Source: Xenorhabdus miraniensis (GTDB taxonomy: Bacteria > Pseudomonadota > Gammaproteobacteria > Enterobacterales > Enterobacteriaceae). From it: a DNA stretch of 64,000 nucleotides. The stretch covers positions 1 through 64,000 of the forward strand of contig NZ_NITZ01000018.1 in assembly GCF_002632615.1 (NCBI RefSeq), given 5' to 3'. The notes below the pieces were generated by a model. It saw only the letters and a program-made list of their open reading frames with translations, was not told the DNA's origin and made no database searches. Below, piece after piece: positions 13,331-54,730 of this stretch. The translations under genes and the position numbers were made by a program. Position 1 is the first letter of the stretch, and the number at the start of each line of letters is the position of its first letter.

Positions 13331-16300
13331 CAACAACTACTCAAACCATGATTCCCGTGGCTGACCGCAGCCAGCCATTGCCTTTATCTTTTGCCCAACA
13401 GCGTTTGTGGTTCCTGAGTCAGCTCAATCCGGCGGCAAGTCTGGCTTACCATATTCCCGTGGCATTGCGTCTGACTGGCGAACTTAACATCCACGCCATG
13501 ACGACCGCACTGGAACATCTGGTTTCCCGCCACGAGAGCTTACGGACTCGTTTTGTTCTGGTGGAAGGTCAACCCTACCAACATATCGATCCCGCTGATA
13601 TGGGTTTTGCCCTGTCCAGCCATGATTTGCGTCAGCTTGATCCGGCTCTGCACATCCGCCATATTGCCAAACTTACTGATCTTGAGGCTCAAACCCCTTT
13701 CGATTTTACTCAGGGCCCGCTTATTCGTGGTCAATTGTTGCAATTGACAGATGAAGAACATGTGTTATTGCTCACCCTGCATCACATTATTACTGATGGC
13801 TGGTCTATTGGTGTATTAGTGCGCGAACTTGATGTTCTCTATCATGCTGTCCTCAACGACTATGACACTCCCTTGCCGCCTTTGCCGATTCAATATGTCG
13901 ATTATGCTGTCTGGCAGCGTGAATGGTTGCAGGGAAACAACCTTACAGAACAACGAAATTTCTGGTATGCACAACTTGAAAATGCACCTGCCCTATTGTC
14001 ACTTCCCACTGATCGGCCACGCCCGGCGGTACAAACTTATGTTGGCAGTCAGGTGCCCTTCCATCTTGATGCCAGCGTACTGACATCGCTTAAGTCACTT
14101 GGACAACGTCATAACACCACCTTATTTATGACGGTACTGGCAGCCTGGAGTATTGTCCTTGCCCGACTCAGTGGTCAGGATGATATTGTGATGGGTACGC
14201 CGGTCGCCAATCGCCCACACCGTGAACTTGAGGGATTAATGGGCTTTTTTGTCAATACGCTGGCTTTGCGTGTCCGGCTCAATGATGACCTCAGCGTTAC
14301 TGACCTACTTACCCAAGTCCGGGAGCAAGCACTCGCCGCCTATGCCCATCAGGATCTGCCCTTCGAACAAGTAGTAGAGACGTTACAGCCTGAACGCAGT
14401 CTCAGCTACAGCCCCATTTTTCAGGTGATGCTGGCCTTGGACAATACGCCAGTTCAAGAGCGAACTTCGCCCGGCTTACAGATCTCACGTATTGAACAGA
14501 TAAGTCATAGCGCACACTTTGATTTGATGTTGTTGTTGACTGAAACCGACACGGGCTTGATTGGCGGATTGGAGTATGCGTCTGATCTGTTTGATTCCTC
14601 CACCGTTGAGCGCATAGTTGGCTATTTACAACGAGTGTTGGCAGCAATGGCAACCGATACGACCCAAGCCATTGCGCGTCTGCCGATGCTGTCCGAATCG
14701 GAGCGGCAACAATTGTTGGTGGATTTCAACGCCACCCATGCCGATTTCCCGCAAAATGCCCTGATCCACCAGCTATTTGAAGCTCAGGCGGCTCAATGCC
14801 CTACTGCAACAGCAGTTGTATGTGGCAACCAAACGCTCAGTTATGACGAATTAAACCGTCACGCCAATCGCTTGGCACATCATTTGATTGCATTGGGAGT
14901 ACGCCCGGATGATCGGGTAACCATTTGTGTTGAACGCCGTCCCGAAATGGTGATTGGTCTGCTCGCCATTCTCAAAGCCGGCGGGGCTTATGTGCCGTTA
15001 GATCCGGCCTATCCCACCGAACGGCTGGCGTATATGCTGGAAGATTCAGCACCGATGGCGATACTGACCCAAACGGCACTTGTCAACAAGCTGACTCGCG
15101 CTGTACCCAAGGTTCTGCTCGATAATATACTCGACACCCAAACACCATTCCTGACAGAGCAGCCAGACCACAATCCCGATGCGCAGGTTCTGGGGCTGAC
15201 TTCACGCCATTTGGCGTATGTTATTTACACATCAGGCTCTACCGGTCTGCCCAAAGGCGTGGCCATCGAACACCGCAATACCGTGAATTTCCTGACGTGG
15301 ACACAACAAATGTTTAGCCCGGCGGAATTGGCACACACGTTGTTTGCCACTTCACTGAATTTTGACCTGGCTGTGTACGAATGTTTTGCTCCTTTGCTCT
15401 CTGGCGGTACGGTGCACCTTGTCCCTGATGTGTTGTCGCTGGTTAACACAGAATCAGCCATCACAAAACAGGCCATCAGCCTGATTAACACCGTGCCATC
15501 GGCTATCGCAAGGCTGATTGAAGTCAATGCGGTGCCCATGAGCGTCCGAACCGTCAATTTAGCCGGTGAAGCCCTGAAATCACACGTTGTTGAACACTTA
15601 TTTACCCACACCAATGTCCAGAATGTATGCAATTTGTACGGCCCTTCTGAAACGACAACGTATTCAACGTGGACACGAATGAACCGTGCAACGGGATTTG
15701 ACAGCCATATCGGCCGTCCGATTGCCAATACCCGGATTTATATCCTTGATTCGCATGGTCAACCGGTGCCACTTGGCGTTGTCGGTGAAATCCATATCGC
15801 CGGCGCGGGTGTTGCCCGCGGTTATCTGAATCGCCCTGAGTTGACCACCGAACGCTTCCTTTCCGATCCGTTCTCTTCCGATCCCGATGCACGTATGTAC
15901 AAAACGGGTGACCTCGGTCGCTGGTTGTCTGACGGTAATATCGAATACCTTGGCCGCAATGACTTTCAGGTCAAACTGCGCGGCTTCCGTATTGAGCTGG
16001 GTGAAATTGAGGCGCAACTGATGCAGTGTCACGGTGTGCGCGAAGCGGTAGTAATTGAAGCGGCATTTATTGAAACGACAGTTATTGAAACAGCAGTTAT
16101 TTCCCATGAAGAAGAGTCCGGACAGAAGCGATTAGTCGCCTATTTACGTCCACAGGAGGGTGTTGAGTTACTTCCTAACGAACTGCGCCAACAACTTGCC
16201 CAACACCTTGCTGAGTATATGTTGCCTAGTGCCTTTGTGACATTAGCGGCTTTCCCGTTAACACCTAACGGTAAACTTGATCGCAAAGCCCTGCCTGTCC

Positions 16301-19300
16301 CGGATTCATCTGCCGTGGTGACACGCGGTTATTCAGCACCGGTCGGTGAAATAGAAATCGCTTTGGCGCAAATCTGGCAAGATCTGTTGGGATTAGAGCG
16401 AGTGGGCCGTCATGACCATTTCTTTGAACTGGGCAGCCATTCCCTGATGATTGTCAGCCTGATTGAACGACTGTACAGCCTCGGTTGGCAACTTGACGTC
16501 CGCAGTGTGTTCTCTGCTCCCGTACTGTCTGCAATGGCACAGGCAATTCAAGGGGATATTGATACCTTCGTTGTGCCGCCTAACCGTATTCCTGACGGTT
16601 GCACCGCCATTACACCTGATATGCTGCCTTTGGTATCACTTTCCCAGGCTGAGATTGATGCGATCGTCGCAGCAACCCCCGGCGGGGCCGGCAATATACA
16701 GGATATCTACCCTCTGGCACCACTACAGGAAGGTATTCTGTTCCATCACCTGTTACAAACGCAGGGCGATACCTATCTGTTACACTGTATGCTCGCCTTT
16801 GATACCCGCAGCGCCCTTGATGCTTTCCTGTCCGGTCTGCAACAAGTCATCGACCGCCACGATATCCTGCGCACCGCAGCCTGCTGGCAAGGATTGGTAA
16901 AACCGGTTCAGGTGGTCTGGCGTCAGGCATCGCTGCATGTCAATGTGTTCACGCCAGCTACGGCGGATGACGTGCCATCTCAATTACAGGCCCACGTTAA
17001 CCCACGTGGAAGCCGTCTCGACCTCAGCCGGGCACCGCTGTTTGCTGCAGATATCGCCCATGATCCCGCGCAGGACAGGTGGCTGCTGGCCCTGCGCTTC
17101 CATCATCTCGTCAGCGACCATATGACTCTGGAGCTGATTTTTGCTGAGATTGCCCAAATACAACAAGGGCAAACCAAGGCACTGCCTGCGGCGCTCCCTT
17201 ACCGTAACTTTATTGCCCAGACGTTAAATGTACCGACAGATGTGCATGAAGCGTATTTCCGTACTCAACTTGCTGATATCGGTGCCCCGACAGCGCCCTT
17301 TGGTGTCCTCTCAATGCAGGATGATAGTGAGCCTATCGTTGAAGCTCATCTCTCGCTCGATCCTGCTCTTGCGGAAGCAATCCGCGCTCAGGCTCGCCGT
17401 CTGGGCGTCAGTCCGGGGGTATTGTTCCATGTCGCCTGGGCGCAAGTGCTGGCACAAACCAGCGGTTGCAACGAGGTTGTTTTCGGTTCTGTGCTGTCAG
17501 GCCGTCTACAGGGCGGGGCGGGCGCTTCCCGAACACTGGGGATGTTTATCAATACGCTGCCGGTACGAATTTCTCTCGCCGGCCGTCATGTGCGGGATGT
17601 GGTACAGGCCTCCTATCACAATTTAACGGCCCTACTGGAACACGAGCAGGCACCATTGGCGCTGGCACAACGTTGCAGCGCCGTGGCGCAGCCAATGCCA
17701 TTGTTCAGTGCGTTACTCAATTACCGTCACACTCAACTTAATGAGGCTGACGTTATTGAGATGCCCCAGATAGGTATGCGTATCATCGCTATTGAAGAAC
17801 GGACTAACTATCCCGTCACATTAACAGTAGATGATACGAATATCGGTTTCCGCCTCACAGCGCAAACAGTAGCCCGTATTGATCCAACACGCATTACCAC
17901 GTATCTGATGACCGCCGTTCGTGGTCTGGTGGATGCGTTGGCTCACCAGCCGCAACAGTTGATTCAAGCGCTATCAATCCTGCCAGCGACAGAGCGGCAG
18001 CAATTGTTGGTGGATTTTAATGCCACTCAGGTGGATTTCCCACAAAATGCCTTGATCCACCAACTGTTCGAAGCCCAAGTGCAACGTCATCCCGATGCGA
18101 TTGCCGTCGTGTTTGAGGGTGAATCATTAAGCTATGACGAACTGAACCGCCGTGCTAATCGTCTGGCCCATCATTTGATTGCGCTGGGGGTACATCCTGA
18201 CGATCGCGTTGCGATCTGTGTCGAGCGTAGTCCGCAACTTATTGTGGGTCTGCTCGCCATTCTTAAGGCGGGCGGTGCTTATCTGCCGCTTGATCCGACT
18301 TATCCGTCCGAACGATTGATGTATATGCTTGAGGATGCAGAGCCTGTGGCCTTGCTGACTCAAACAGCCTATGTGGACAAACTGGACAGCCACATCCCTG
18401 CTGTGTTGCTTGACGCACAAGAATCGTTTCTAACAACACCGTTTCTAACAACACCGTTTCTAACAACACAAGCGACGCATAATCCGGACATTCAGGCACT
18501 GAATCTGACATCACGCCATTTAGCCTACGTGATTTACACATCAGGTTCCACCGGATTGCCTAAAGGTGTAATGGTCGAACACCGCAATGTGCTTCGCCTT
18601 ATCATCAACAGTGGTTTTGCTGATATTGGCCCTGACGACTGTGTTGCCCACTGTGCCAATATTGCTTTTGACGCATCAACCTGGGAAATCTGGTCTGCCC
18701 TGCTCAATGGCGGACGTCTGCATGTCGTTGCACAATCCGTGCTGCTTGATCCGGTGCATTTCTGCGATTCCCTGATCAAGGGACAAGTCACTGCGCTCTG
18801 GTTAACGGCTGGCTTATTCAATGAGTACCTTGATGCGCTCAAGCCCCTGTTCGGGCAATTGCGCTACCTGCTTGTCGGTGGTGATGTACTCGACCCTAAA
18901 AAGATACAGCATGTTCAATTGGCTGAATCGCAGCCTGCTTGTTTGGTTAACGGATATGGCCCAACGGAAACCACCACGTTTGCTGCAACCTATGCGATTA
19001 CCTCACCCGTTGATGTTACGCGCTCTATTCCCATTGGCAGTCCGATTGCGAATACCCGGATCTATATCCTCGATCCATACGGGCAACCGGCTCCTCTCGG
19101 GGCGGCCGGCGAAATTTACATTGCCGGAGCTGGTGTTGCCCGCGGTTATCTGAACCAGCCCGAACTGACCGCAGAACGTTTCCTCGTCGACCCGTTCTCT
19201 TCAGAGCCGGATGCCCGTATGTACAAAACCGGTGACCTCGGACGCTGGCTGTCCGATGGCAATATCGAATACCTCGGCCGCAATGATTTTCAGGTCAAAC

Positions 19301-22300
19301 TGCGGGGTTTCCGGATTGAACCGGGTGAAATAGAGGCAAAACTTGAGCAATGTGATGGCGTGCGCGAAGCGGTTGTGATCGTCCGTGACGATAAACGTCT
19401 GGTCGCCTATGTGCAACCGATGGATGGCATCGGGTTAGTACCGGCCGAATTGCGCCGGCAACTCGCCAAACATCTTGCGGAATATATGCTACCGAGTGCT
19501 TTTGTTACGCTTAAGACTTTTCCGCTGACACCGAATGGCAAACTTGATCGTCAGGCACTCCCTGCCCCTGATTTATCGGCTGTGGTCGCGCGCGGTTATG
19601 AAGCTCCTGTTGGTGAGACAGAAATTGCACTGGCCCGGATTTGGCAAAAATTGCTGGGACTGGAACAGGTTGGCCGTCATGACCATTTCTTTGAGCTGGG
19701 CGGTCATTCGCTGCTGGCTGTCCAACTTGTCGCGCATGTACGTCAGGATCTGGCGCGAGAGTTGTCACTACAACAACTCTTTGACCAGCCGCTTCTGATG
19801 GATTTGGCCCAAACGCTTACTGACGCTTCGACAACCGCTCCGCTAACGATCCCTGTAGCTGATCGCAATCAGCCACTACCGTTATCCTTCGCTCAACAAC
19901 GGTTATGGTTCCTGAGTCAACTCGATCAGGCAGCCAGTCTGGCCTATCATATTCCCGTGGCATTGCGCCTTACCGGTCAGCTCAATCATCAGGCACTGAG
20001 CCACGCACTCGATAATCTGGTTGCCAGACAGGAAATATTACGTACCCGTTTTGTGCTGGTGGCAGGTCAACCCTGCCAGCAAATCGATCCTGTTGATATT
20101 GGCTTTGCCTTGTCTTACCAAGACCTGCGTCCATTAGCACCAGAAGAGCATCACCACCGGATGACTGAACTTGTCTCGCTTGAAACCCAGACGCCTTTTG
20201 ACTTTATTCAAGGCCCGCTGATCCGGGGGTATTTGCTGCAACTGACAGACAAGGAGCATGTTTTATTGCTCACCCATCATCATATTATCTCTGATGGTTG
20301 GTCTATCAGTGTGCTGATGCGCGAGTTGAGTGTCCTCTATCGTGCGGCCCTTGAGGGTGAAAGCGATCCCTTGCCGCCTCTGCCCATTCAATACGCTGAC
20401 TATGCTGTCTGGCAACGTCACTGGCTGCAAGAAACGACCCTGACAACACAACGCGATTTCTGGCGTGCCCGACTTGAAGAGGCTCCGGCCTTACTGGTAC
20501 TGCCGACTGACCGCCCGCGCCCGACAGTACAATCCTTCGTCGGAGGCCGGGTTCCTGTCCATTTTGACAGGGATCTATTGGCATCACTGAAAGGATTTGG
20601 ACAACGCCATAACAGCACCCTGTTTATGACTGTGTTAACTGGCTGGAGTATCGTTCTTGCCCGCCTCAGCGGTCAGGATGATATCGTCATCGGCACACCG
20701 GTCGCCAACCGGCCTCATCATGAACTTGAAGGGTTAATCGGTTTCTTCGTCAATACATTGGCCTTGCGTGTCACGCTGAATAATTCCATCAGTGTCTCTG
20801 ACCTGCTTACCCAGGTTCGTGAACGGGCACTCGCGGCCTATGCTCATCAGGATCTGCCCTTTGAACAAGTGGTGGAAGCCCTACAGCCTGAGCGTAACCT
20901 GAGTTATAGCCCGATCTTTCAGGTTATGCTGGCCCTGAACAACACGCCATCTCAAGTGTTGACGTTACCGGATCTCCAGTTCACACCGATTGAACAGACG
21001 CATTACAGTGCTCATTTTGATTTAACCTTGTCACTGACTGAAACTGAAACCGGTTTAGTGGGTGATCTGGTTTATGCCGCGGATTTGTTCGATGCCGCAG
21101 CCATTGAGCGTATGGTCGGTTACCTGAACACTGTGTTAGTGGCAATGGTGGCTGATGAAACACAATCCATTGCCACTTTGCCGATGTTACCCGCATCGGA
21201 GCGGCAACACCTGCTGGTGGACTTCAATACAACTCAGGCTGATTTCCCACAAGAGGCGTTGATCCACCAACTGTTTGAAGCTCAGGCGGCCAATACTCCC
21301 GATGCGATTGCCGTCGTATTCGAGGGGCAAACACTCAGCTATGACGAATTAAACTGCCGCGCCAATCGTCTGGCTCATTATTTGCTTACACTGGGTGTTC
21401 GCCCGGATGACCGCGTGGCGATGTGTGTCGAGCGCAGTATGGAAATGGTGGTCGGCTTAATGGCTATCCTCAAAGCCGGAGGAGCTTATGTGCCGCTTGA
21501 TCCTGCCTATCCCACTGAGCGGTTGACTTATATGCTTGAGGACGCGGCACCGAGAGTGTTGCTGACACAAGAAACGCTGGTCGGCAAACTGCCCGATTCA
21601 GTCCCTGTGTTACTGCTCGATACCCAAGACTCACTACTGGCTTCACAGCCAGCCCACAATCCGGACTCTCAGGCATCAGGGCTGACATCCCGCCATCTGG
21701 CTTATGTCATCTATACTTCCGGCTCCACAGGGTTGCCTAAAGGGGTCATGGTTGAACATCGCAGCTTAAGTAACCTGATTACGACACAGCAAGCTACCTT
21801 AGCGATCAAACCAGACAGTCGTATCCTGCAATTTGCGTCAAACAGTTTCGATGCCTGTATCTGGGAATGCTGCATGGCACTTTTGGGTGGCGCTCGTCTC
21901 CATCTTGCCCGTCGTACTCATCTTCTACCCGGCCCGGCATTGCAGGCGATTTTGGAAACACAGGCCATTACACACATTCTTCTGTCACCAACAGCATTGG
22001 CAGCCATGGATGCCATACCTGAAACACTGGAAACGCTGCTCGCAGGCGGTGAAGCCTGTCAGGTTTCACAGGTTAAACGCTGGTCAGAAGGAAGGCGTAT
22101 GCTGAATGCTTACGGCCCTACTGAAATTACAGTTTGTGCGGCGATGTATCTGTGTGACAGTCAGGAACAAAGCGCGCCACCTATTGGCCGCCCAATTGCC
22201 AACACCCAAATCTATATTCTTGATCCTGAAGGCCAGCCTGTTCCTGTTGGAGTCGCCGGCGAAATCTATATCGCTGGCGCCGGCGTTGCCCGCGGCTATC

Positions 22301-32997: not shown

Positions 32998-33011
32998 TGA
33001 TAAGGACTAAT

Positions 33012-39872: not shown

Positions 39873-39883
39873 TAAGGACTAAC

Positions 39884-43185: not shown

Positions 43186-46100
43186 TCTGGCATATCAGAA
43201 CAATACTTGCGCTTTTGTGGTGCCAGCCAACCTTATCCGCGAAGACAGCACCACTATTACGCCTGATATGTTGCCGCTGGTTTCGCTGTCTCAAGCTGAA
43301 ATCAATGCCATTATTGAAACTATCCCCGGCGGGGTAAGTAATATACAGGACATCTATCCGCTGGCCCCGTTGCAGGAAGGAATTTTGTTCCATCACTTAT
43401 TACAGACACAAGGTGATGATTATCTGCTGCAAAGCCTGCTGGCCTTTGATACCCGTGAGCGTCTCGATGCCTTTTTAGGCGCGTTGCAACAAATCATTGA
43501 CCGCCATGATATTCTGCGCACTTCTGCTTATTGGCAAGAGCTGGCCCAACCTGTTCAGGTGGTCTGGCGCCATGCTCCGTTGTGTATCAATGTCTTTACT
43601 CCGATTACAGCGGACGACGTTCCGTCGCAATTATCTGCTCATACCGATCCTCGCAGGAATCGTCTTGATCTGAGCCGTGCCCCACTGTTTGCTGTGGACA
43701 TTGCCTACGAGCCGGTACAGGGTGAATGGCTGTTGTCCTTACGTTTTCACCATCTGGTCAGCGACCATGTGACATTGGAGTTGATCTTCGCTGAAATTGC
43801 GCAGGTGTTGCAGGGGCATACCGAAATGCTGCCCGCGGCACTGCCTTACCGCAACTTTATCGCCCAAACTTTAAGTGTGCCAACCACGCTGCATGAAGAC
43901 TATTTCCGCACCCAACTTGCCGATGTTGTTGAGCCGACCGCTCCATTCGGGATACTCAAAGTACACAGTGATAGCAGCAGCATCAACGAATCCCGCCTCC
44001 CACTCGATCCCGCTTTGGCGAAGAATATTCGCGCGCAGGCCCGTCGTTTGGGTGTCAGCCCCAGCGTACTGTTCCATGTCGCCTGGGCACAGGTGTTGGC
44101 ACATACCAGCGGTCACGACGATGTGGTCTTTGGTTCGGTATTATTGGGCCGCCTACAGGGAATTTCAGGGGTTAAACGAACACTGGGTATGTTCATCAAT
44201 ACCCTGCCGATGCGGATTTCCCTGACAGGACGCAGTGTGCGGGAAGTCATACGGGCCACCTACCGCAATCTGACAACATTACTGGAACATGAGCAGGCAC
44301 CGTTGGCGCTGGCACAACGATGCAGTGGCGTGGCGCAACCCATGCCGCTGTTCAGTGCCTTGCTGAACTATCGTCACAGTCAGGCCGGTGAGACTGCAAC
44401 CGCTGACACGATGTGGACTGGGATGCGTATTCTGGCTGCTGAGGAACGAACCAACTATCCCATCACCCTGTCAGTGGATGATCTGGGATTGGGTTTCCAT
44501 CTGATGGCTCAGACTGTGCCCGGAATCGATCCTGCCCGCGTGACGCAATATCTCATCACTGCCATCAGTGGACTGATTGATGCCTTAGCCCATGATCCGC
44601 AACAACCCATTCTGCAAGTACCGATTTTGCCGGCTTCGGAGCAACAACAACTGTTGGTGGATTTCAACGCTACCCAGACAAACTTCCCACAAGAGGTTTT
44701 AATTCATCAATTATTTGAAATTGAAGCAGCACGTCATCCCACTGAGATTGCAATGGTATGCGGAGAACAATTACTCAGCTATGAAGCGCTGAATCGCCGT
44801 GCCAACCGTTTAGCACATCATTTAATTGCGCTGGGTGTAAGGCCGGACGATCGGGTAGCGATATGTGTTGAACGCAGTCTGGAGATGGTGGTGGGACTGC
44901 TTGGTATTCTCAAGGCTGGCGGTGCCTATGTGCCGCTTGATCCGGCTTATCCAACTGAACGGCTGGCTTATATGCTTGAGGATTCCGCACCAGTGGTGGT
45001 GCTGACCCAACAAGCAATTCAACAAACGGTGTGTTTGAACACATTTATTGGCTCTGAGTCTACAGGTTCTATACCCATCGTCATGCTCGATACCCAAGAA
45101 CCGTTTATGGAAATACAGCCGGAACATAACCCGGAAGTGCCGGATCTGACAGCTCACCATCTGGCCTATGTTGTTTACACTTCGGGTTCAACAGGCATCC
45201 CCAAAGGTGTGATGAGTAGCCACCGGGCTTTGGGTAACCGATTGTTGTGGTTCGTACGCGATATCGCAACCGCCTCATTGATCGCAGCGCTGAAAACCAG
45301 CATCAGTTTTGTCGATTCGATCACAGAAACACTGGGGACATTGCTGGCTGGCGGTAAGCTGGTGGTTTTCAACAACCATGAAGTGAAAGATCCTGTTCGT
45401 TTCTGTGAAGGTTTGCAACGCTTTAATGTTAACCTTTTGGTGGTCGTACCTTCACTATTGAAACTCTTGATACAGAATCGTAATGATAATGGTCATTACC
45501 TGAAATCAATCAGGACATTGATTTGCAGCGGAGAACGGCTTTCCCCTGAACTGGCGCGGCAGGTAGTGGCAGAATACCCTTGGCTTCGGTTGCTGAATTT
45601 TTATGGTTCGTCTGAAATTAATGGTGATGCTACGTGGTATGAATACAGCGCTACGCCCGGCATACCCGAAGCTTCGGTGATTGGCCGCCCCATCGCCAAT
45701 ACCCAAAGCTATATTCTCGATACTCACGGTCAGCTTGTTCCTTTTGGCGTGACCGGTGAAATCTATATTGCTGGTGCAGGGGTTGCCCGTGGCTACCTGA
45801 ATCGCCCTGAACTGACCGCTGAACGTTTCTTTAACGATCCTTTCTCTGCAAACCCGGATGCCCGCATGTACAAAACCGGCGATCTCGGCCGTTGGCTGCC
45901 TGATGGCAATATCGAGTATCTTGGCCGCAATGATTTTCAGGTCAAGCTGCGCGGCTTCCGAATTGAATTGGGTGAAATCGAGGCCCAACTGATGCGGTGT
46001 CACGGAGTACGTGAAGCCGTCGTTGTTGTCCGCGAAGAAATGGTTGTCCACGAAGAAATGATTGTCCGCGAAGGTGAACCGAATTCGCAGCGGCTGGTTG

Positions 46101-49100
46101 CCTATCTGCGTCCACAGGATGGCGTTGAACTGATCCCCGCAGAACTGCGTCAGCAACTTGCCCTGCACCTCGCTGAATATATGCTGCCCAGTGCTTTTAT
46201 GATACTTGACGCTTTCCCATTAACGCCCAATGGTAAACTTGATCGTAAGGCACTCCCTGAACCGGATTCATCTGCCGTGGTAACACGCAGTTATGCAGCG
46301 CCGGTCGGTGAAACCGAAACCACTTTAGCGCAAATCTGGCAAGACTTATTGGGACTGGAGCACATTGGCCGCCATGACCATTTCTTCGAACTCGGAGGCC
46401 ATTCCCTGCTGGCCGTCCAGCTCGTTGCGCGCATTCGTCAGACGTTGGCACGAGAGTTGCCATTACAGAAGATCTTTGCCCAACCGATTTTGCTGGCGTT
46501 GGCTCACGCAATTACTGAGGCTGCCACAACCACTCAAGCCATGATTCCCGTAGCTGATCGCAGCCAGCCGCTGCCTCTGTCATTTGCCCAACAGCGTTTG
46601 TGGTTTCTGGGACAACTCGATCCGGCAGCCAGTCTGGCCTATCACATCCCTGCGGCACTGCGCCTTACCGGTTCGCTTGATCGTCATGCTTTGACTACTG
46701 CCCTTGATCGTCTGATTGCCCGTCATGAAGACTTACGTACTCGTTTTGTGTCGGTTGAAGGGCAACCCTGCCAACACATCGATCCTGCCGATATCGGCTT
46801 TGCCCTGTCCTGCCATGACCTGCGCCAGATTGATCCCGATTTGCACGCCAGCCGTGTCGCTGAACTTGTCGATATTGAAGCCAGAACCCCCTTCGATTTT
46901 GCTCAGGGTCCGCTGATTCGCGGTCAACTGCTGCAACTGACAGATGAGGAGCATGTATTATTGCTCACCCTGCATCACATTATCACTGACGGCTGGTCTA
47001 TTGGTGTATTGGTGCGCGAACTGGGGGCTTTCTACCGCGCGGCCCTTGACGGTCATGATGACCCCTTACCACCGCTGCCCATTCAATACGCCGATTATGC
47101 CGTCTGGCAACGTGGCTGGCGGCAAGAAGCCACACTGACAGCACAACGCAATTTCTGGTGTACTCAGCTTGAGGGTGCGCCAGCTTTACTGGCACTACCA
47201 ACTGATCGTCCACGTCCATCGGTACAAACTTATGTTGGCGGCCAGGTTCCCTTTCATCTCGATGCCACCTTATTGGCATCACTTAAAAAACTGGGACAGC
47301 GTCATAACGCCACCTTGTTTATGACTGTGTTGAGCGCATGGAGCATCGTACTTGCCCGACTCAGTGGTCAGGATGACATTGTGATTGGCACACCCGTTGC
47401 CAACCGTCCACATAATGAACTTGAAGGATTGATTGGGTTCTTTGTCAATACGCTGGCCTTGCGTGTCAGGTTCAATAATGAACTCAGCGTTACTGACTTG
47501 CTTGCACTGGTTCGGGAACAGGCACTCGCGGCCTACGCCCATCAGGATCTGCCTTTCGAGCAGGTAGTGGAAACATTACAACCTGAGCGCAGCCTCAGTT
47601 ACAGCCCAATCTTCCAAGTGATGCTGACTTTAAATAACACGCCAGCCCAGAAGCTGGTATTACCCGGTTTACAGCTTGCATCCATTGAGCAGGCACATCA
47701 TGGCGCCTATTTTGATTTAACGTTATCACTGACCGAAACTGAGTCTGGTTTGGTTGGTGTTCTGGCTTATGCTGCTGACCTGTTCGATTTCACAACCGCC
47801 GAACGTATGACTGGCTATCTGACAAATATACTGGCTGCAATGGCTTCCGATGAGACGAAGGCGATTGCGGCTCTGCCGATGCTGCCGGAATCGGAAAAAC
47901 AACAATTGTTGGTGAATTTCAATGCCACGCAGACCGACAGACCGCAAAACACCTTAGTTCACTCACTGTTTGAAACTCAGGCCGCCCAGCAGCCTGATGC
48001 GACAGCCGTGATGTTTGATGATCAAACTATAAGCTATGGCGAACTCAACCGCCGCGCTAACCGTTTGGCGCATTACCTGATTGCGCTGGGTGTTCGCCCG
48101 GATGAGCGGGTGGCGATTTGCGTTGAACGCAGTCTGGAAATGGTGGTGGGGTTACTCGCCATCCTTAAGGCCGGTGGTGCTTATGTCCCGCTCGACCCCG
48201 CCTACCCGACCGAACGGCTGGCGTATATGCTCAGGGATTCAGCACCGGTAGCTTTACTTACCCAGACAACGCTTGCTGAGACATTGAACCATGCCGTGCC
48301 TGCCGCCGGATACACTACCGTGCTACTTGATATTCCCCAAGTCTGTCTGTCCGAACAGCCAACCCATAACCCGGACACACAGGCATTGGGGCTGGCATCA
48401 CACCACTTGGCCTATGTGATCTACACATCCGGCTCAACCGGATTACCCAAAGGGGTAAAAATGCCGCTGGCGGCCTTGTCAAACTTGCTGCAATGGCACC
48501 GTCAAGCCCCTTCACATCCCGCGGGAACCGGCAAAACCCTGCAATTCGCCGCACTGGGATTTGATGTCGCTTTTCAGGAAATCTTTACGACCCTGTGTGA
48601 AGGCGGTTGCCTGATCCTGATTAATGAAGCCATGCGGCGGGAACCTCAACAGCTCCTCCGGTTGATTCAGCAAAAACGAATTGATCGTATTTTCCTCCCC
48701 TACATCGCCCTCCAGCATCTTGCGGAAGCGGCCAATCACAGTGAGGGAGATTTTGATAATCTGACGCATATTATTACCGCCGGTGAGCAATTACGCATTA
48801 CACCCGCTATTCAGCGTTTCCTGCAACGGGCTGGCAACTGCCAGTTACACAATCACTATGGCCCAACGGAAAGCCATGTTGCGACCTCCTATGTATTAGA
48901 CAGGGAGAGTGATCACTGGCCAACGTTGCCCCCCATCGGTCGCCCGATAGCCAACGCACAAATCTATATTCTTGACCAATATGGTCAGCCTGTGCCCCTT
49001 GGCGTCACAGGGGAAATCCATATCGCGGGCGCGGGGGTTGCCCGTGGTTATCTGAACCGCCCTGAACTCACTGCCGATCGTTTCCTTTCCGATCCGTTCT

Positions 49101-52100
49101 CCGCGAATCCCGGTGCCCGCATGTACAAAACCGGTGACCTCGGCCGCTGGCTGGCTGATGGCAATATTGAATACCTCGGCCGCAATGACTTTCAGATCAA
49201 GATACGCGGTTTCCGTATTGAATTGGGTGAAATTGAGGCCCAACTGATGCGGTGTCACGGGGTGCGTAATGCGGTTGTTCTTGCCCGCGAAGATGAGCCA
49301 AATCAGAAACGTCTGGTCGCTTATCTGCGCCCACAGGAGGGTGTTGAACTGGTTCCCGCTGAACTGCGTCAGCAACTTGCCCTGCACCTCGCTGAATATA
49401 TGCTGCCCAGTGCTTTTATGATGCTTGACGCTTTCCCATTGACGCCCAATGGAAAACTTGACCGTAAAGCGCTTCCTGCCCCGGATTCATCTGCCGTGGT
49501 GACGCGCGGTTATGCAGCACCCGTCGGTGAAACAGAAACCGTTCTTGCGCAGATCTGGCAAGCGTTGCTGGGGCTGGAACGGGTTGGACGCCATGACCAC
49601 TTCTTTGAACTCGGTGGTCATTCCCTGCTGGCCGTTCAGCTCGTTGCACGTATACGTCAGGCGCTGGCCCGGGAGTTGCCGTTGCAACAACTCTTTGCCC
49701 AACCTGTCCTGATGGATTTGGCCCAGACCATTACTGACGCGGCTGCAACCACTCAGGCCATTATCCCTGTTGCTGACCGGAACCAACCATTGCCTTTATC
49801 TTTTGCCCAACAGCGTTTGTGGTTTCTGGGACAACTCGATCCGGCGGCGAGTCTGGCTTACCATCTTCCTTCGGCACTGCGCCTTACCGGTTTGCTCAAT
49901 CGTCAGGCGTTGACCATGGCATTTGATCGTCTGGTTGCCCGCCATGAGAGCTTACGGACTCGTTTTGTTCTGGTGGAAGGTCAACCCTGCCAGCATATCG
50001 ATCCCGCTGATACCGGTTTTGCCCTGTCCTGCCATGACCTGCGTCAGCTCGATCCGGCCCTGCATACCCGCCGTGTGACCGAACTCGCCGACCTTGAGGC
50101 ACGAACTCCCTTCGATTTTACGCAGGGCCCGCTTATTCGCGGTCAACTGCTGCAACTGGCAGATAAAGAACACGTATTACTGCTTACCCTGCATCACATT
50201 ATCACTGACGGCTGGTCTATTGGTGTATTAGTGCGCGAACTGGGTATCTTCTACCGTGCTGCCCTGTATAACCACGATGATCCTTTACCACCATTGTCCA
50301 TTCAATATGCTGACTATGCCGTCTGGCAGCATGAGCAATTGCAGGGAACCGCCCTCACTGAACAGCGTGATTTCTGGTGTGCTCAACTGGAGGGCGCACC
50401 CGCTTTACTGGCACTGCCGACTGATCGCCCACGTCCATCGGTACAAACTTATGTTGGCGATCAGGTTTCCTTCCATCTTGATGCCACCTTATTGGCATCA
50501 CTTAAGGGACTGGGACAGCGCCATAATGCCACCTTGTTTATGACTGTGCTGAGCGCATGGAGCATCGTGCTTGCCCGACTCAGTGGTCAGGATGATATTG
50601 TGATTGGTACGCCGGTTGCTAATCGCCCACACCATGAACTTGAAGGAATAATGGGTTTCTTTGTCAACACACTGGCCTTGCGCATCAAATTCCATGATGG
50701 CCTCAGCGTGGCTGATCTGCTTGCACAGGTCCGGGAGCAGGCGCTCGCAGCCTATGCCCATCAGGATCTGCCTTTCGAGCAGGTGGTGGAAGCACTACAG
50801 CCTGAGCGTAGCCTCAGTTACAGCCCAATCTTTCAGGTGATGCTGGCCTTAAATAACACGCCGGCTCAAGAACTGGCTTTACCGGAACTACAATTCACAC
50901 CATTTGAACAGATGCACCATAGCACCCACTTTGATTTGACATTATCATTAGCCGAAACTGAGGCTGGTTTGGCTGGTGCGCTGGCTTATGCGGCTGATTT
51001 GTTCGACTCCACTACCGTTGAGCGTATGGTTGATTATCTGACAAATATACTGGCAGCGATGGCGGCGGATGAAACGCAATCCATTGCTACGCTACCAATA
51101 CTACCGAAATCAGAACAGCAACAATTGTTGGTGGACTTCAACGCCACTCAGACGTATTTTCCGCAAGATGCCCTGATCCACCAGCTGTTTGAGGCTCAGG
51201 CAGCACAACGCCCTGACGCTATTGCAGTGATATTTGACGATCAAATCATTAGCTATGGCGAACTTAACCGGCGTGCCAATCGTCTGGCCCATCATCTGAT
51301 TGCGTCGGGTGTGTGCCCGGATGATCGGGTCGCCATTTGTCTCGAACGCAGCCCAGAAATGATTGTGGGTTTACTCGGCATCCTCAAAGCGGGCGGTGCT
51401 TATGTCCCGCTTGATCCGGCCTATCCCACTGAACGGCTGGTATATATGCTCGAAGATGCTGCCCCCGTAGTATTACTGACTCAGACAGCACAGAGCGACA
51501 GACTGCATGACGCTGTGCCTACATTATTATTTGATATACAAGATATTTCTCTGGAAGCACAACCGGATCACAATCCGGAAGCCCGAAAATTGTGGCTGAC
51601 CTCACGCCATCTGGCGTATGTGATCTACACATCCGGCTCGACAGGGCAACCCAAAGGGGTCATGGTTGAGCACCGCAGTGTCAATCGGCTGGTTATCAAT
51701 AACGCTTTTGCGGATATCGGTGTGAATGACTGCGTTGCCCATTGCGCCAATATCGCTTTTGACGCATCGACCTGGGAAATTTGGTCAGCCCTGTTAAACG
51801 GTGGGCGTTTGCATGTGGTTTCACAATCCGTACTGCTTGATCCGGTGCGTTTTTGTGATTCACTCATCAAGGGGAAAGTGACCGCCCTATGGTTAACCGC
51901 GGGCTTATTCAACGAGTATCTCGATATGCTCACCCCTTTATTTGGGCAGTTACGCTACCTGCTTATCGGCGGCGATGTTCTCGATCCGAAGAAAATCCAA
52001 CGTGTACAATTGGCTGAGTCACAACCCGCACATCTCATTAACGGATACGGCCCAACAGAAACCACAACGTTTGCTGCAACTTATACCATTGCATCACCCG

Positions 52101-54730
52101 TTAATGTTACCCGCTCTATTCCGATCGGACGTCCAATTGCCAATACCCAGATTTATATTCTTGATCCGTATGGTCAACCGGTTCCCCTTGGTGTCACAGG
52201 TGAAATCCATATTGCGGGTGCAGGGGTTGCCCGTGGTTACCTGAACTACCCTGAACTTACTCTCGAACGTTTCCTGACCGATCCATTTTCTTCAGATTCG
52301 GATGCACGCATGTATAAGACCGGCGATCTCGGCCGTTGGCTATCCGATGGTAATATCGAATATCTCGGCCGCAATGATTTTCAGGTCAAACTGCGTGGCT
52401 TCCGAATTGAACTCGGTGAAATAGAAACCCGGCTCGCACAATGTCACGGTGTGCGTGAAGCCGTGGTTATTGCCCGCGAAGATGCTTTTTATAAGAAAAC
52501 AAGTTATAAGAAAACAAGTTATGAGAAAATAGATTATGAAAAAACAGGGGGGCAAAAACGATTGGTCGCTTATTTGCTGCCTCAAACAGGTATTGAATTA
52601 GTGCCGGCCGAACTGCGCCAGCAACTCACCCAACATCTCGCTGAGTACATGATACCCAGCGCCTTTGTCACGTTAGAGGCTTTCCCATTGACACCCAACG
52701 GTAAACTTGATCGTCAGGCGCTCCCTGCCCCTGATTCGTCCGCTATTGTAGTACGTGGTTATGCCGCTCCGATTGGTAAAACTGAGACAATTCTGGCTCA
52801 GATTTGGCAGGATTTATTGGGACTGGAACGAATCGGCCGTTATGATCATTTCTTTGAGCTCGGCGGTCACTCATTGCTCGCTGTACAACTATTGAATCGT
52901 ATGCGCGAACAAGACATGGAAGTTCCGCTGACCGCCTTGTTCGCACACCCAACGTTGTGCTCACTGGCTCTGGCTGCCAGTGAACACCTTGCTGCTCTAC
53001 CTGTATCTCCATTTGATGCGAATCCCGTACCATTAAGCCCGGCAGGTTCTTTGCTACCTCTATTTCTGGTGCATGAAACTTCCGGTGATCCTTTGGTTTA
53101 TTCCCCACTGGCGGCCTTACTGCCACCCGAACTCCCCGTTTATGCGTTGCAAGCGCTTGGTATTCACACACTTGAGCACCCACCTGTATCGATTGAGGAA
53201 CTGGCGGCCAGCCACATTCAGGCAATCCGTCGACTCCAACCACAAGGGCCTTATCGTCTGGCCGGATGGTCAATTGGTGGTTTGATTGCCTATGAAATAG
53301 CTCAGCAACTCACGAGTAACGGAGAGATGGTAGAGTTCCTCGGTATGATTGATTCTTATCATCATGTCAATAACGGTTCCTCTGAAGAGAGGAATGAACG
53401 GTCAATGATGACTGACCAGCCTGTAGATAAGGAAGCCAGACAAATTGAGTTCATCATTGACTCACTGCGTACTCACGAAATACATACTTACGAAAGAGTG
53501 AAAGACGAACAGGTATTGGAAGAGCTGCACAAACTCAACAACTTGGAGCAGGTGATTGATCACTGCATTGCACACCAATGGTTGCCGGCTAATATCACAC
53601 GTGAGGATGTCCTCATTCGTTTATATACTGCTGAGCTGATTACGCAGCTTGGTCAAGATTATAGTGCGCCAAAATCATCCTTACCTATCCATCTCTATAC
53701 AACAGATGAGTTAAACAACGGGGATATCTGGCGGGGTTGGCACGATATTGCCGGCCAAAATTCAGAACTCCACACGATCGGTGGGACGCATTTTTCAATT
53801 ATGCACCCTCCCTTGCTCAATCAGATAGCGGATTCAATCACCGAACACGTGCGAGCGGTTCCTGCTTTCGATCCACGCGTTATCATTCAACTGGGATCTA
53901 AATCGGTATCGCCGCTATTCTGTATGCCCGGCGCGGGTGCCAGCCCTTCTAGTTTGCTCGAGCTGGCGCTGTCATTCCCACAGCCACTCCCGATATACGC
54001 TTTACAGGCACGCGGCTTTACCGTCGAGCATAATTATCCTTATACCAGCGTTGAAGGCGCTGCCCGTGCCTATATTCAGGTTATCCGTGAAACCCAACCC
54101 CACGGCCCTTATCACCTGCTGGGGCATTCTTTTGGTGGCTGGATCGCCTTTGAGATGGCTTTACAATTACAGGCTGAGGGGGAACAAGTCTCCGATCTCA
54201 TTCTTATCGATACTGATGAGCCTGACCAGCAAGGCAGCGCCCGTAAGTCAACCAATTATATTGAAACGATAATGGAGTTGATTGATATCTACGATATGAT
54301 ATTAAACCAGCCCCTTCCGCTCACCAGACAAGATTTTGATCATCTGGCGCCGGATGAACAGATCCAATTTCTACACAGTGCCTTGGTAAAAGCGGGGCTC
54401 TTTCCGGCCAAAACGCCAATATCACTGCTACAGGGAGTCATCCGCGTTATGCAGGCTAACCTGAACACCCGCTATATCCCCCGTACACGTTATGAGGGAC
54501 TTGTTCACCTGATCAGTGCAGAGAACGGGGATATTGATGAAAGAAAAACCCGCGAAACGCAGTGGAGCACTCACGTTGCTAAACTGAATACGATGCTTGC
54601 TCCCGGCAATCATATGACCATGTTGTCCACACCACAGGTTGAGCACTGGCTGACTCAGCTATGGCAGACATTGGATTACACAAATAACCCAAATTCTGCG
54701 TTTTTATTCGGAAAGAGAAAACCTCACTGA
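39884..54730 (+). CDS. Non-ribosomal peptide synthetase, four modules plus tandem thioesterases (modules 10-13, TE-TE)
   Basis: A 4948-residue terminal synthetase with order LCL-A-T, C/E-A-T, LCL-A-T, LCL-A-T, TE, TE. Phosphopantetheine serines lie at residues 1066, 2174, 3247 and 4330. Codes: DLYNNALTYK (Ala), VDTVISFGDK (beta-Ala type, lacking the usual Asp235), DVQFIAHVAK (Pro), DAWWLGGTFK (Val). TE1 has GWSIGG with Ser 4463, and TE2 has GHSFGG with Ser 4749; an Asp and a late His follow in each. The start at 39884 (MNLDNLKRAVLKKK) has AAGGA upstream; an ATG at 39869 overlapping the previous stop (ATGA) is the alternative. The product is released here, most likely as a macrolactone through Thr6. 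No tailoring domain or exporter is fused or adjacent. Confidence 0.97.
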   Translation: MNLDNLKRAVLKKKIKEQLQTQKYQKRPPIRQAARDLPLPLSFAQQRLWFLNQLDPATGLAYHIPVALRLTGQLHHYALSDALNRLIARHEILRTRFMLIGGQPCQHIDPAGVGFALSYQDLRSLDSETQTHRLAELTAFEAQRSFDLTQGPLIRGHLLQLADEEHVLLITQHHIISDGWSIGVLVHELGGLYRAALDNQDDPFPPLPIQYADYAVWQRDWLQGDVLAQQRDFWCAQLKGAPALLDLPADRPRPAIQTYTAGQVPVQFDTPLLESLKSFGQRHHTTLFMTILAAWSIVLARLSGQDDLVIGTPVANRPNHELEGLIGFFVNTLALRITLNDTASVADLLTQVRERALAAYAHQDLPFEQVVEALQPERSLSHSPVFQVMLALNNTPAKALTLSGLQLAPAEQIRYSTHFDLTLSLTETEVGLLGELEYAVDLFDSATVERMVGYLKQVLIAMTTDATQTIAHLPLLPASERQQLLAEFNNTQADFPQDALIHQLVEAQAALTPNATAVVCKEQSLSYAELNQRANHLAHHLIAQGVRPDDRVAICAERNLEMVVGLLAILKSGGAYVPLDPAYPAERLAYMLEDAAPVVILTQTTLSDKLTSPVSTVFIDNQEPFIQGQSADNPNPQTLGLTSHHLAYVIYTSGSTGQPKGVAIAHRNTVNFLTWAQQTFSPEELADTLFATSLNFDLAVYECLAPLISGGTVHIVSDALSLITTELTATKLFITKPSITKSSITEPSITKPSISLINTVPSAIAHLIDANAIPAVTKTINLAGEALKPHIVEHLFARSSVQNVCNLYGPSETTTYSTWTRMNRAIGFVSHIGRPIANTRIYILDTYGQPVPLGVTGEIHIAGAGVARGYLNRPELTAERFLIDPFSSDPDARMYKTGDLGRWLADGNIEYLGRNDFQVKLRGFRIELGEIEAQLMQCHGVREAVVVAREDISAEKTVGQKRLVAYLLAQDGVELVPAELRRQLTQHLAEYMLPSAFMVLEVFPLTPNGKLDRQALPAPDLSAVVARGYEAPTGELEIALAQIWQNLLELAQVGRHDHFFELGGHSLLIVSLIEQLHNLGWRLDVRSVFATPVLSELAQTILAYQNNTCAFVVPANLIREDSTTITPDMLPLVSLSQAEINAIIETIPGGVSNIQDIYPLAPLQEGILFHHLLQTQGDDYLLQSLLAFDTRERLDAFLGALQQIIDRHDILRTSAYWQELAQPVQVVWRHAPLCINVFTPITADDVPSQLSAHTDPRRNRLDLSRAPLFAVDIAYEPVQGEWLLSLRFHHLVSDHVTLELIFAEIAQVLQGHTEMLPAALPYRNFIAQTLSVPTTLHEDYFRTQLADVVEPTAPFGILKVHSDSSSINESRLPLDPALAKNIRAQARRLGVSPSVLFHVAWAQVLAHTSGHDDVVFGSVLLGRLQGISGVKRTLGMFINTLPMRISLTGRSVREVIRATYRNLTTLLEHEQAPLALAQRCSGVAQPMPLFSALLNYRHSQAGETATADTMWTGMRILAAEERTNYPITLSVDDLGLGFHLMAQTVPGIDPARVTQYLITAISGLIDALAHDPQQPILQVPILPASEQQQLLVDFNATQTNFPQEVLIHQLFEIEAARHPTEIAMVCGEQLLSYEALNRRANRLAHHLIALGVRPDDRVAICVERSLEMVVGLLGILKAGGAYVPLDPAYPTERLAYMLEDSAPVVVLTQQAIQQTVCLNTFIGSESTGSIPIVMLDTQEPFMEIQPEHNPEVPDLTAHHLAYVVYTSGSTGIPKGVMSSHRALGNRLLWFVRDIATASLIAALKTSISFVDSITETLGTLLAGGKLVVFNNHEVKDPVRFCEGLQRFNVNLLVVVPSLLKLLIQNRNDNGHYLKSIRTLICSGERLSPELARQVVAEYPWLRLLNFYGSSEINGDATWYEYSATPGIPEASVIGRPIANTQSYILDTHGQLVPFGVTGEIYIAGAGVARGYLNRPELTAERFFNDPFSANPDARMYKTGDLGRWLPDGNIEYLGRNDFQVKLRGFRIELGEIEAQLMRCHGVREAVVVVREEMVVHEEMIVREGEPNSQRLVAYLRPQDGVELIPAELRQQLALHLAEYMLPSAFMILDAFPLTPNGKLDRKALPEPDSSAVVTRSYAAPVGETETTLAQIWQDLLGLEHIGRHDHFFELGGHSLLAVQLVARIRQTLARELPLQKIFAQPILLALAHAITEAATTTQAMIPVADRSQPLPLSFAQQRLWFLGQLDPAASLAYHIPAALRLTGSLDRHALTTALDRLIARHEDLRTRFVSVEGQPCQHIDPADIGFALSCHDLRQIDPDLHASRVAELVDIEARTPFDFAQGPLIRGQLLQLTDEEHVLLLTLHHIITDGWSIGVLVRELGAFYRAALDGHDDPLPPLPIQYADYAVWQRGWRQEATLTAQRNFWCTQLEGAPALLALPTDRPRPSVQTYVGGQVPFHLDATLLASLKKLGQRHNATLFMTVLSAWSIVLARLSGQDDIVIGTPVANRPHNELEGLIGFFVNTLALRVRFNNELSVTDLLALVREQALAAYAHQDLPFEQVVETLQPERSLSYSPIFQVMLTLNNTPAQKLVLPGLQLASIEQAHHGAYFDLTLSLTETESGLVGVLAYAADLFDFTTAERMTGYLTNILAAMASDETKAIAALPMLPESEKQQLLVNFNATQTDRPQNTLVHSLFETQAAQQPDATAVMFDDQTISYGELNRRANRLAHYLIALGVRPDERVAICVERSLEMVVGLLAILKAGGAYVPLDPAYPTERLAYMLRDSAPVALLTQTTLAETLNHAVPAAGYTTVLLDIPQVCLSEQPTHNPDTQALGLASHHLAYVIYTSGSTGLPKGVKMPLAALSNLLQWHRQAPSHPAGTGKTLQFAALGFDVAFQEIFTTLCEGGCLILINEAMRREPQQLLRLIQQKRIDRIFLPYIALQHLAEAANHSEGDFDNLTHIITAGEQLRITPAIQRFLQRAGNCQLHNHYGPTESHVATSYVLDRESDHWPTLPPIGRPIANAQIYILDQYGQPVPLGVTGEIHIAGAGVARGYLNRPELTADRFLSDPFSANPGARMYKTGDLGRWLADGNIEYLGRNDFQIKIRGFRIELGEIEAQLMRCHGVRNAVVLAREDEPNQKRLVAYLRPQEGVELVPAELRQQLALHLAEYMLPSAFMMLDAFPLTPNGKLDRKALPAPDSSAVVTRGYAAPVGETETVLAQIWQALLGLERVGRHDHFFELGGHSLLAVQLVARIRQALARELPLQQLFAQPVLMDLAQTITDAAATTQAIIPVADRNQPLPLSFAQQRLWFLGQLDPAASLAYHLPSALRLTGLLNRQALTMAFDRLVARHESLRTRFVLVEGQPCQHIDPADTGFALSCHDLRQLDPALHTRRVTELADLEARTPFDFTQGPLIRGQLLQLADKEHVLLLTLHHIITDGWSIGVLVRELGIFYRAALYNHDDPLPPLSIQYADYAVWQHEQLQGTALTEQRDFWCAQLEGAPALLALPTDRPRPSVQTYVGDQVSFHLDATLLASLKGLGQRHNATLFMTVLSAWSIVLARLSGQDDIVIGTPVANRPHHELEGIMGFFVNTLALRIKFHDGLSVADLLAQVREQALAAYAHQDLPFEQVVEALQPERSLSYSPIFQVMLALNNTPAQELALPELQFTPFEQMHHSTHFDLTLSLAETEAGLAGALAYAADLFDSTTVERMVDYLTNILAAMAADETQSIATLPILPKSEQQQLLVDFNATQTYFPQDALIHQLFEAQAAQRPDAIAVIFDDQIISYGELNRRANRLAHHLIASGVCPDDRVAICLERSPEMIVGLLGILKAGGAYVPLDPAYPTERLVYMLEDAAPVVLLTQTAQSDRLHDAVPTLLFDIQDISLEAQPDHNPEARKLWLTSRHLAYVIYTSGSTGQPKGVMVEHRSVNRLVINNAFADIGVNDCVAHCANIAFDASTWEIWSALLNGGRLHVVSQSVLLDPVRFCDSLIKGKVTALWLTAGLFNEYLDMLTPLFGQLRYLLIGGDVLDPKKIQRVQLAESQPAHLINGYGPTETTTFAATYTIASPVNVTRSIPIGRPIANTQIYILDPYGQPVPLGVTGEIHIAGAGVARGYLNYPELTLERFLTDPFSSDSDARMYKTGDLGRWLSDGNIEYLGRNDFQVKLRGFRIELGEIETRLAQCHGVREAVVIAREDAFYKKTSYKKTSYEKIDYEKTGGQKRLVAYLLPQTGIELVPAELRQQLTQHLAEYMIPSAFVTLEAFPLTPNGKLDRQALPAPDSSAIVVRGYAAPIGKTETILAQIWQDLLGLERIGRYDHFFELGGHSLLAVQLLNRMREQDMEVPLTALFAHPTLCSLALAASEHLAALPVSPFDANPVPLSPAGSLLPLFLVHETSGDPLVYSPLAALLPPELPVYALQALGIHTLEHPPVSIEELAASHIQAIRRLQPQGPYRLAGWSIGGLIAYEIAQQLTSNGEMVEFLGMIDSYHHVNNGSSEERNERSMMTDQPVDKEARQIEFIIDSLRTHEIHTYERVKDEQVLEELHKLNNLEQVIDHCIAHQWLPANITREDVLIRLYTAELITQLGQDYSAPKSSLPIHLYTTDELNNGDIWRGWHDIAGQNSELHTIGGTHFSIMHPPLLNQIADSITEHVRAVPAFDPRVIIQLGSKSVSPLFCMPGAGASPSSLLELALSFPQPLPIYALQARGFTVEHNYPYTSVEGAARAYIQVIRETQPHGPYHLLGHSFGGWIAFEMALQLQAEGEQVSDLILIDTDEPDQQGSARKSTNYIETIMELIDIYDMILNQPLPLTRQDFDHLAPDEQIQFLHSALVKAGLFPAKTPISLLQGVIRVMQANLNTRYIPRTRYEGLVHLISAENGDIDERKTRETQWSTHVAKLNTMLAPGNHMTMLSTPQVEHWLTQLWQTLDYTNNPNSAFLFGKRKPH
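42080..42139 (+). repeat. In-frame 15 bp tandem repeat in module 10 A domain
   Basis: Four 15 bp units encode F-I-T-K-P, S-I-T-K-S, S-I-T-E-P, S-I-T-K-P, followed by SISLINTVPSAIA. The equivalent place in module 2 has one copy (AITKQAISLINT). Confidence 0.95.
43195..46510 (+). other. Module 11: dual C/E-A(beta-Ala)-T
   Basis: The dual-domain motif HHLLQTQGD starts at residue 1170. The A4 motif is FVDSITE: Val 1810 takes the place of the invariant Asp235 and Asp follows at 236. This is the mark of A domains that take beta-amino acids, whose amine sits one carbon further away. The full code VDTVISFGDK fits beta-alanine. T Ser is 2174. The 18 bp repeat at 46025-46078 lies in its A subdomain. 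Confidence 0.85.
46025..46078 (+). repeat. In-frame 18 bp tandem repeat in module 11 A subdomain
   Basis: Three 18 bp units encode V-V-R-E-E-M, V-V-H-E-E-M, I-V-R-E-G-E, triplicating the VxRED strand/loop segment before the conserved RLVAYL. Confidence 0.95.
46540..49730 (+). other. Module 12: LCL-A(Pro)-T
   Basis: The C domain has HHIITDGWS. The A4 motif is FDVAFQE (Asp 2894), and the code DVQFIAHVAK is a proline code. The A domain is a close paralogue of module 1 (VKMPLAALSNLLQWHR versus VEMPLAALSNLLHWHR). T Ser is 3247. Confidence 0.85.
49760..52985 (+). other. Module 13: LCL-A(Val)-T
   Basis: The C domain has HHIITDGWS. The A4 motif is FDASTWE (Asp 3960), and the code is DAWWLGGTFK, Val-type. 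T Ser is 4330 in LGGHSLLAVQL. Four 15 bp units lie in the A subdomain (52490-52549). It loads the last residue before the thioesterases. Confidence 0.8.
52490..52549 (+). repeat. In-frame 15 bp tandem repeat in module 13 A subdomain
   Basis: Four 15 bp units encode Y-K-K-T-S, Y-K-K-T-S, Y-E-K-I-D, Y-E-K-T-G, before GQKRLVAYL. The last unit resembles the last unit of the module 5 array, pointing to common descent of the two loops. Confidence 0.95.
53020..54730 (+). other. Tandem thioesterase domains TE1 and TE2
   Basis: TE1 (about 53020-53870) begins at LFLVHETSGDP, has nucleophile motif GWSIGG (Ser codon 53270), an Asp in FLGMIDSYHH and a His in GGTHFSIMHP. TE2 (about 53875-54730) begins at LFCMPGAGASP, has GHSFGG (Ser codon 54128), an Asp in LILIDTDEPD and a His in PGNHMTML. 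Both triads look complete, so neither is an obvious relic. Tandem TEs are known at the end of several lipopeptide and depsipeptide synthetases. Confidence 0.9.

Follow-up and report, generated by a model that had tools for sequence, protein, structure and literature searches.

Where do bacterial genes gain and lose short repeated units? The in-frame intragenic minisatellites of bacteria (VNTRs) consist of head-to-tail units whose lengths are multiples of three and whose number varies between relatives; most descriptions of them concern surface proteins or repeat proteins. Here we describe arrays with the same properties in a 13-module NRPS of Xenorhabdus miraniensis. In contrast to the usual VNTRs, these arrays lie in a biosynthetic enzyme, where paralogous modules carry them in parallel at corresponding sites.

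On the enzyme side, the closest described system is the xenoamicin synthetase, for which the published layout is 13 modules and an aspartate decarboxylase. Gene names and counts differ between sources: the available text of PMC12668312 gives XabABC with the decarboxylase XabD, whereas that of PMC6305712, a review that counts five NRPSs, gives XabABCD with the decarboxylase XabE. Repeats are not mentioned in the available portions of either source. Similarly, the interrupted adenylation (A) domains (e.g., 5wmm) show that A domains accept insertions; there, however, a folded methylation domain is inserted, whereas the inserts described below are small repeat units that sit at the tip of a hairpin. 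A search of the open full-text literature, with most subscription journals lying outside it, returned no paper that points by its title or abstract opening to repeat loops in NRPSs, Xenorhabdus, or Photorhabdus, and in the accessible portions of PMC9205934 and PMC4666352 repeat or Xenorhabdus wording occurs only in references or in unrelated context.

A Candidate Xenoamicin-Type NRPS Locus

The window, by which we mean the whole 64,000-nucleotide stretch that was analysed, contains three collinear NRPS genes on the forward strand. The first (10087..32997) encodes a protein of 7636 aa with modules 1–7, as judged from its ORF, Pfam C/A/T domains, and seven A8 motifs; the second (32997..39872; 2291 aa) and the third (39869..54730; 4953 aa), delineated from their ORFs and A domains, encode modules 8–9 and modules 10–13 plus a thioesterase region, respectively, with thioesterase stretches close to the end of the third gene. 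The 7+2+4 A domains make 13 modules, the number given by the initial annotation. Pfam AMP-binding and AMP-binding_C domains are found within C-A-T modules, as in NRPS adenylation domains, and the A domain of module 13 scores 464 bits against TIGR01733 (cut-off 317). Adjoining the NRPS genes is a gene for a PanP-type aspartate 1-decarboxylase (xabD-like; 54854..56548, forward strand), an equivalog match to TIGR03799 (779 bits; cut-off 606). With 13 modules, this adjoining decarboxylase, and three NRPS genes as in the available text of PMC12668312, the gene layout makes the window cluster a candidate for the xenoamicin type and its product. Upstream of the NRPS genes, positions 426–6722 encode DegT aminotransferase, MFS transporter, GH65 enzyme, epimerase, and HAD hydrolase domains. 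Downstream of the cluster there are two arrays outside the NRPS genes, at 56765–56814 (15 bp) and 59566–59609 (16 bp, not a multiple of three).

In-Frame Arrays in Six A_sub Hairpins

Six A domains carry a tandem array between the motifs VREAVV and QKRLVAY, in the A_sub hairpin; as the initial annotation had reported, these are the A domains of modules 2, 5, 8, 9, 11, and 13, and all six arrays, on the forward strand, are in frame and located where that annotation had placed them. In modules 2, 9, and 11 the units read as duplications of native strand codons: the module 2 array (16042..16101) comprises four 15-bp units (EAVVI EAAFI ETTVI ETAVI), the first of which reads as native strand, while module 9 (39264..39317; VLMREV TLMREM ILMRED) and module 11 (46022..46075; VVVREE MVVHEE MIVREG) each have three units of 18 bp. 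The arrays of module 5 (25876..25935; YENIS YENIS YENIG YEKTG) and module 13 (52490..52549; YKKTS YKKTS YEKID YEKTG) each comprise four 15-bp units, and that of module 8 (35943..35987; YEQTG NEQAG DKQTG) comprises three. The loop is short in modules 1, 4, 6, 7, and 12, again as described before. These earlier lists of modules hold as far as they go, but they omit two: in module 3 (A8 motif to LVAY, 19276..19410, forward strand) the loop is four residues shorter and reads VRDDKR, and in module 10 (42620..42781, same boundaries and strand) there is a single five-residue insert, EDISAEKTVGQKR, without a tandem array.

Across the NRPS genes, TRF (score at least 50) detects 14 arrays, six in the A_sub hairpin and eight elsewhere. 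Run on the same DNA after codon shuffling or after simulation with a second-order Markov model, it finds a mean of 0.08 and 0.16 arrays, respectively (maximum 1 in each case, n = 50), so that head-to-tail units far exceed chance expectation, as in minisatellites. Could a change in unit number switch the synthetase on and off, as at a contingency locus? The tandem units are indeed variable in number; however, 13 of the 14 periods are multiples of three, and gain or loss of such units keeps the frame. We therefore reject the phase-variable locus as a very unlikely description of these genes.

Unit Number Differs from That in X. khoisanae

The nearest relative found was an X. khoisanae contig, which served as the reference for the ortholog comparison; modules were paired by gene order, BLAST having matched window module 9 to another module. 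Identity of the three proteins amounts to 93.1% across 14,736 aligned residues, and the alignment contains 28 indel runs, three of which, at the first residues, are start-choice artefacts. Eight of the 25 internal runs fall in the A_sub hairpin, which makes up about 1–2% of the sequence and would receive 0.24–0.49 if runs were evenly placed; the other 17 lie outside the hairpin, and a number of these likewise consist of small units in repeat. Hairpin loop length is unequal in eight of 13 modules (1, 2, 5, 7, 8, 9, 11, and 13). For example, the arrays of modules 2, 5, and 9 are absent in X. khoisanae, those of modules 8 and 13 are five residues shorter there, and module 11 has 12 extra residues in the window and 13 in X. 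khoisanae. By module, the expansion is present in both in four of 13 cases, in the window only in three, and in X. khoisanae only in two. Module 7 of X. khoisanae contains one extra 18-bp copy of native strand codons that the window lacks, a young duplication that is visible in the DNA. Unit number thus varies between relatives, as it does in VNTRs.

Were the arrays made where they now stand? The inserts could instead be mostly old sequence, shuffled by module duplication and recombination. The terminal 15-bp unit TATGAAAAAACAGGG (YEKTG) is identical in modules 5 and 13, the module 8 unit is similar, modules 1 and 13 of X. khoisanae end in YEKTGGQKR, and +5 loops with similar residues recur in several species. 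However, the units of modules 2, 9, and 11, as well as of X. khoisanae module 7, look like copies of the modules' own strand codons, and loops at a given module position vary in size from one ortholog to another; we consider it improbable that inheritance accounts for most of the inserts. The earlier claim that the expansions arose more than once is therefore upheld in that they are local, recurrent, and in frame, but the six arrays do not represent six independent origins, since modules 5 and 13 share a unit that module 8 resembles, while it is in modules 2, 9, and 11 that the units look like copies of the native strand.

Hairpin Inserts Across Xenorhabdus

Alignment of the loop across Xenorhabdus NRPSs, a check proposed with the initial annotation, showed that loop lengths vary between relatives. 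Our protein comparison rests on 120 of 7991 matches, with genus labels assigned from organism names: 83 rows are labelled Xenorhabdus, including the window's own protein (P0003), the X. khoisanae protein (P0008), and four rows without an organism name (P0001, P0020, P0071, and P0080), and the other 37 rows are partly without a name. Among the matches listed, the loop exceeds its modal 22 residues in 70 of 206 Xenorhabdus-labelled domains, most commonly with 27 residues, followed by 32 and 37. The remaining rows contribute 86 domains, whose loops have 21–24 residues throughout and in no case an insert of at least three; these loop counts cover the A domains recognised by a regular expression, and domains missed by it fall outside them. 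When the unique Xenorhabdus loops are pooled, they contain 89 inserts of at least three residues, of which 63 are multiples of five residues. Likewise, a module profile derived from the 13 modules of the window itself finds hairpin inserts of at least four residues in 38 of the 135 modules from Xenorhabdus but in none of the NRPS-rich second genus (G210 and G303; up to 32 modules) or of other relatives (up to 60), i.e., in 0 of up to 92.

The frequency of hairpin inserts differs among nine clusters (36 of 113 modules overall; chi-square P 0.008). Within a species, the comparison covered four protein clusters of X. bovienii, none of which has an insert. In one Xenorhabdus genome, G018, two runs with 13 A domains apiece lie side by side, and a PanP-like decarboxylase comes after each of them (C2:2335001–2433000; L021–L025). 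Two of 13 hairpins in one run carry inserts, and this run also has loops shortened by four residues, versus neither feature (0 of 13) in the other.

NRPS genes are difficult to assemble, and assembly error in a repetitive gene could produce spurious arrays. Yet the reading frames stay open, and expansions of this loop also turn up in other genomes and in protein records; because these records show them too, we reject this explanation as exceedingly unlikely.

How often has the loop changed? On a tree of 22 orthologs of the two-module protein, calculated with the loop columns excluded, the hairpins of modules 8 and 9 each require at least eight changes of size and at least four changes between presence and absence of an insert. 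Insert sizes are 0, 5, 9, 10, and 15 residues in module 8 and 0, 3, 5, 12, 13, and 17 in module 9 (21 rows, the bharatensis row having no module 9 loop). An equal unit number in all homologs, the pattern that the initial annotation had set against local expansion, is contradicted both by these changes and by the eight of 13 modules that differ from X. khoisanae. When the 26 indel clusters in these orthologs (the bharatensis row left out) are ranked by length classes, the two hairpins stand fifth and sixth, behind a C-domain site (residue 1393), the A2–A3 loops (642 and 1767), and a second C-domain site (226).

Arrays at Other Sites

Three of the eight arrays outside the hairpin, in module 3 (18425..18469; 15 bp × 3, FLTTP), module 7 (31450..31482; 12 bp × 2.8, SVPF), and module 8 (34950..34984; 15 bp × 2.3), all on the forward strand, appear to share one homologous site when read against the profile consensus, the A-core loop between what we take to be the A2 and A3 motifs. 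The remaining ones are spread over C domains, linkers, and further parts of the A core, and include, on the same strand, a C-domain loop array in module 8 (33678..33757; 15 bp × 5.3, QLQEK), which has the top TRF score and sits at a site where ortholog lengths span 30 residues, an array between the C and A domains of module 7 (31056..31108; 15 bp × 3.5, IHHA.), and A-core arrays in module 10 (42071..42141; 15 bp × 4.7, ITKPS) and module 9 (38783..38807; 12 bp × 2.1, QHVQ). A marginal array begins at 44304 (22 bp × 1.9).

In the module profile, the A2–A3 loop has inserts of at least four residues in 80 of 134 Xenorhabdus modules, 32 of these 80 being a single 4-residue class, versus the 38 of 135 for the A_sub hairpin. 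One C-domain column shows a constant 5-residue insert in 53 of 133 Xenorhabdus modules that is common to other genera. The description of the hairpin as the one hot spot therefore needs qualification: in-frame expansion recurs at this loop, but the loop is not its sole site, given the 17 internal indels elsewhere and the larger number of modules with an expanded A2–A3 loop.

The Hairpin Tip as Modelled

What is the structural setting of the arrays? We modelled the A domain of module 13 only, using AlphaFold2 and a 47-row alignment (mean pLDDT 88). The predicted structure keeps the A-domain fold, with query-normalised TM scores of 0.88 to EntF (5t3d) and 0.85 to LgrA (5es8), both of which are in thioester-forming or thiolation states. 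Mapping the loop onto an A-domain structure had been suggested before, and in the model the array occupies the tip of the A_sub β-hairpin, between two confidently modelled strands (residues 447–456 and 482–490). The array itself (residues 460–479) lies within the sole segment of at least three residues below pLDDT 50 (459–479), a value that may come from a lack of aligned rows at this position, so that disorder is not established by the model. DSSP assigns short strands of low confidence inside the array (459–463 and 474–478), and an ordered, longer hairpin is possible. About 76% of the residues in the expanded loops are E, G, D, S, A, T, N, or K; since these are mostly small or polar, selection on loop composition is possible.

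Constraint on the Units and the Case for Tuning

The pN/pS ratio between adjacent units is 0.98 in the six window hairpin arrays and 0.72 in 16 Xenorhabdus arrays that include these six, whereas the window and X. khoisanae orthologs give 0.16 for sequence outside the loops; synonymous differences are few (8.2 and 17.5 for the two sets), boundary units that merge with native sequence are counted, and the genus set takes in only stretches that are at least 70% identical. The hairpin unit sequence is thus weakly constrained. For aligned loop codons between orthologs the ratio is 0.34 (182 codons), and for four arrays outside the hairpin it is 0.31; although the numbers are small, these two ratios point to some constraint.

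The same data bear on whether array length is adaptive, that is, whether it sets A_sub rotation or contacts with neighbours and selection keeps a particular length in each module. Consistent with such tuning are the recurrence at a single structural site, the restriction of the inserts to Xenorhabdus among the genera sampled, the polar or small loop residues, the four modules whose loops are expanded in the window and in X. khoisanae alike, the partial constraint on ortholog loop codons, and the low-confidence strands within the modelled array. Against it stand the weak constraint on adjacent hairpin units, the differences in presence by module between close relatives, and the 13-module G018 cluster without any insert, and we judge it unlikely. 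Of the two functional options first offered for the loop, tolerance is tentatively favoured by the unit pN/pS and the model, whereas tuning finds no positive support. In a bolder version, which we think quite improbable, length change quantised in steps of five residues at the A_sub hairpin and A2–A3 loop would be a fast-evolving adjuster of Xenorhabdus megasynthases; if so, each lineage would reset the motion or neighbour contacts of single modules and leave substrate pockets untouched.

Mutation Supply and Genomic Background

Do the arrays simply mirror the repeat content of the genome? Stretches drawn at random from three Xenorhabdus genomes (800 kb) contain 23 non-coding arrays, of which 15 have a period of 14–17 bp and 10 a period divisible by three, as against 11 of 15 coding arrays; this contrast, based on a split by simple ORF calls (a stricter rule leaves four instead of eight coding arrays in G014), fits short tandem duplication filtered by frame. 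The window NRPS genes hold 14 arrays in 44.6 kb, well above the 6–35 per Mb in random coding DNA of three relatives.

Array density, however, does not track hairpin inserts: non-coding densities in G014, G018, and G030 are 153, 453, and 32 per Mb, and inserts occur in 7 of 12, 2 of 26, and 2 of 12 hairpins, respectively. Likewise, G223, from another genus (L107–L108 and L150–L160), has a background comparable to that of Xenorhabdus, with 32 arrays per Mb in coding and 268 in non-coding DNA, yet its loops are uniform and none carries a hairpin insert despite the many short arrays in and between its genes. In G210, of the NRPS-rich genus, coding density is higher still at 71 per Mb, and each of the 11 arrays has a period divisible by three, again without a hairpin insert. 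The genus of G031, with few NRPS matches, was used as repeat background only (four arrays in 400 kb). A purely mutational account is weakened by G223, by G210, and by the mismatch of density and inserts among the three Xenorhabdus genomes.

Discussion

We propose, with a probability of roughly two in three, that the hairpin arrays are in-frame minisatellites subject to birth and death: short tandem duplication would generate them, and the reading frame, together with what the exposed tip of the hairpin tolerates, would decide which ones persist. First, short tandem duplication of local DNA, perhaps by strand slippage, would create an array, the units of which would then diverge singly. Second, duplications of about 14–18 bp would arise in these genomes, but within genes mostly those that keep the frame (steps of 15, 18, or 12 bp) would persist, and they would do so where the fold absorbs extra residues, as at the A_sub β-hairpin tip, the A2–A3 loop, C-domain loops, and linkers. 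These duplications would be near neutral. The YEKTG unit may, in addition, have spread among modules 5, 8, and 13 by module recombination. Because each synthetase contains 13 copies of the same hairpin, the event recurs in parallel.

Gain and loss of repeats in the Xenorhabdus hairpin most likely mean that the protein tolerates extra units. Since X. khoisanae J194 produces xenoamicins, according to the accessible text of PMC8042232, a synthetase with large loops can probably still function; the loops compared here are those of the X. khoisanae contig, taken to be the one in genome G001.

What do the arrays mean for megasynthases? They constitute a natural experiment in which a single structural site of the A domain has accepted insertions dozens of times. 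As a natural insertion-tolerant site, the hairpin could help NRPS engineers to position tags or linkers, and knowledge of it could aid in aligning and modelling these enzymes. Furthermore, our observations suggest that megasynthase indels in Xenorhabdus stem largely from short tandem duplication, and with 13 copies of the hairpin per cluster across species, both the rate of such events and the tolerance of the fold to them are measurable.
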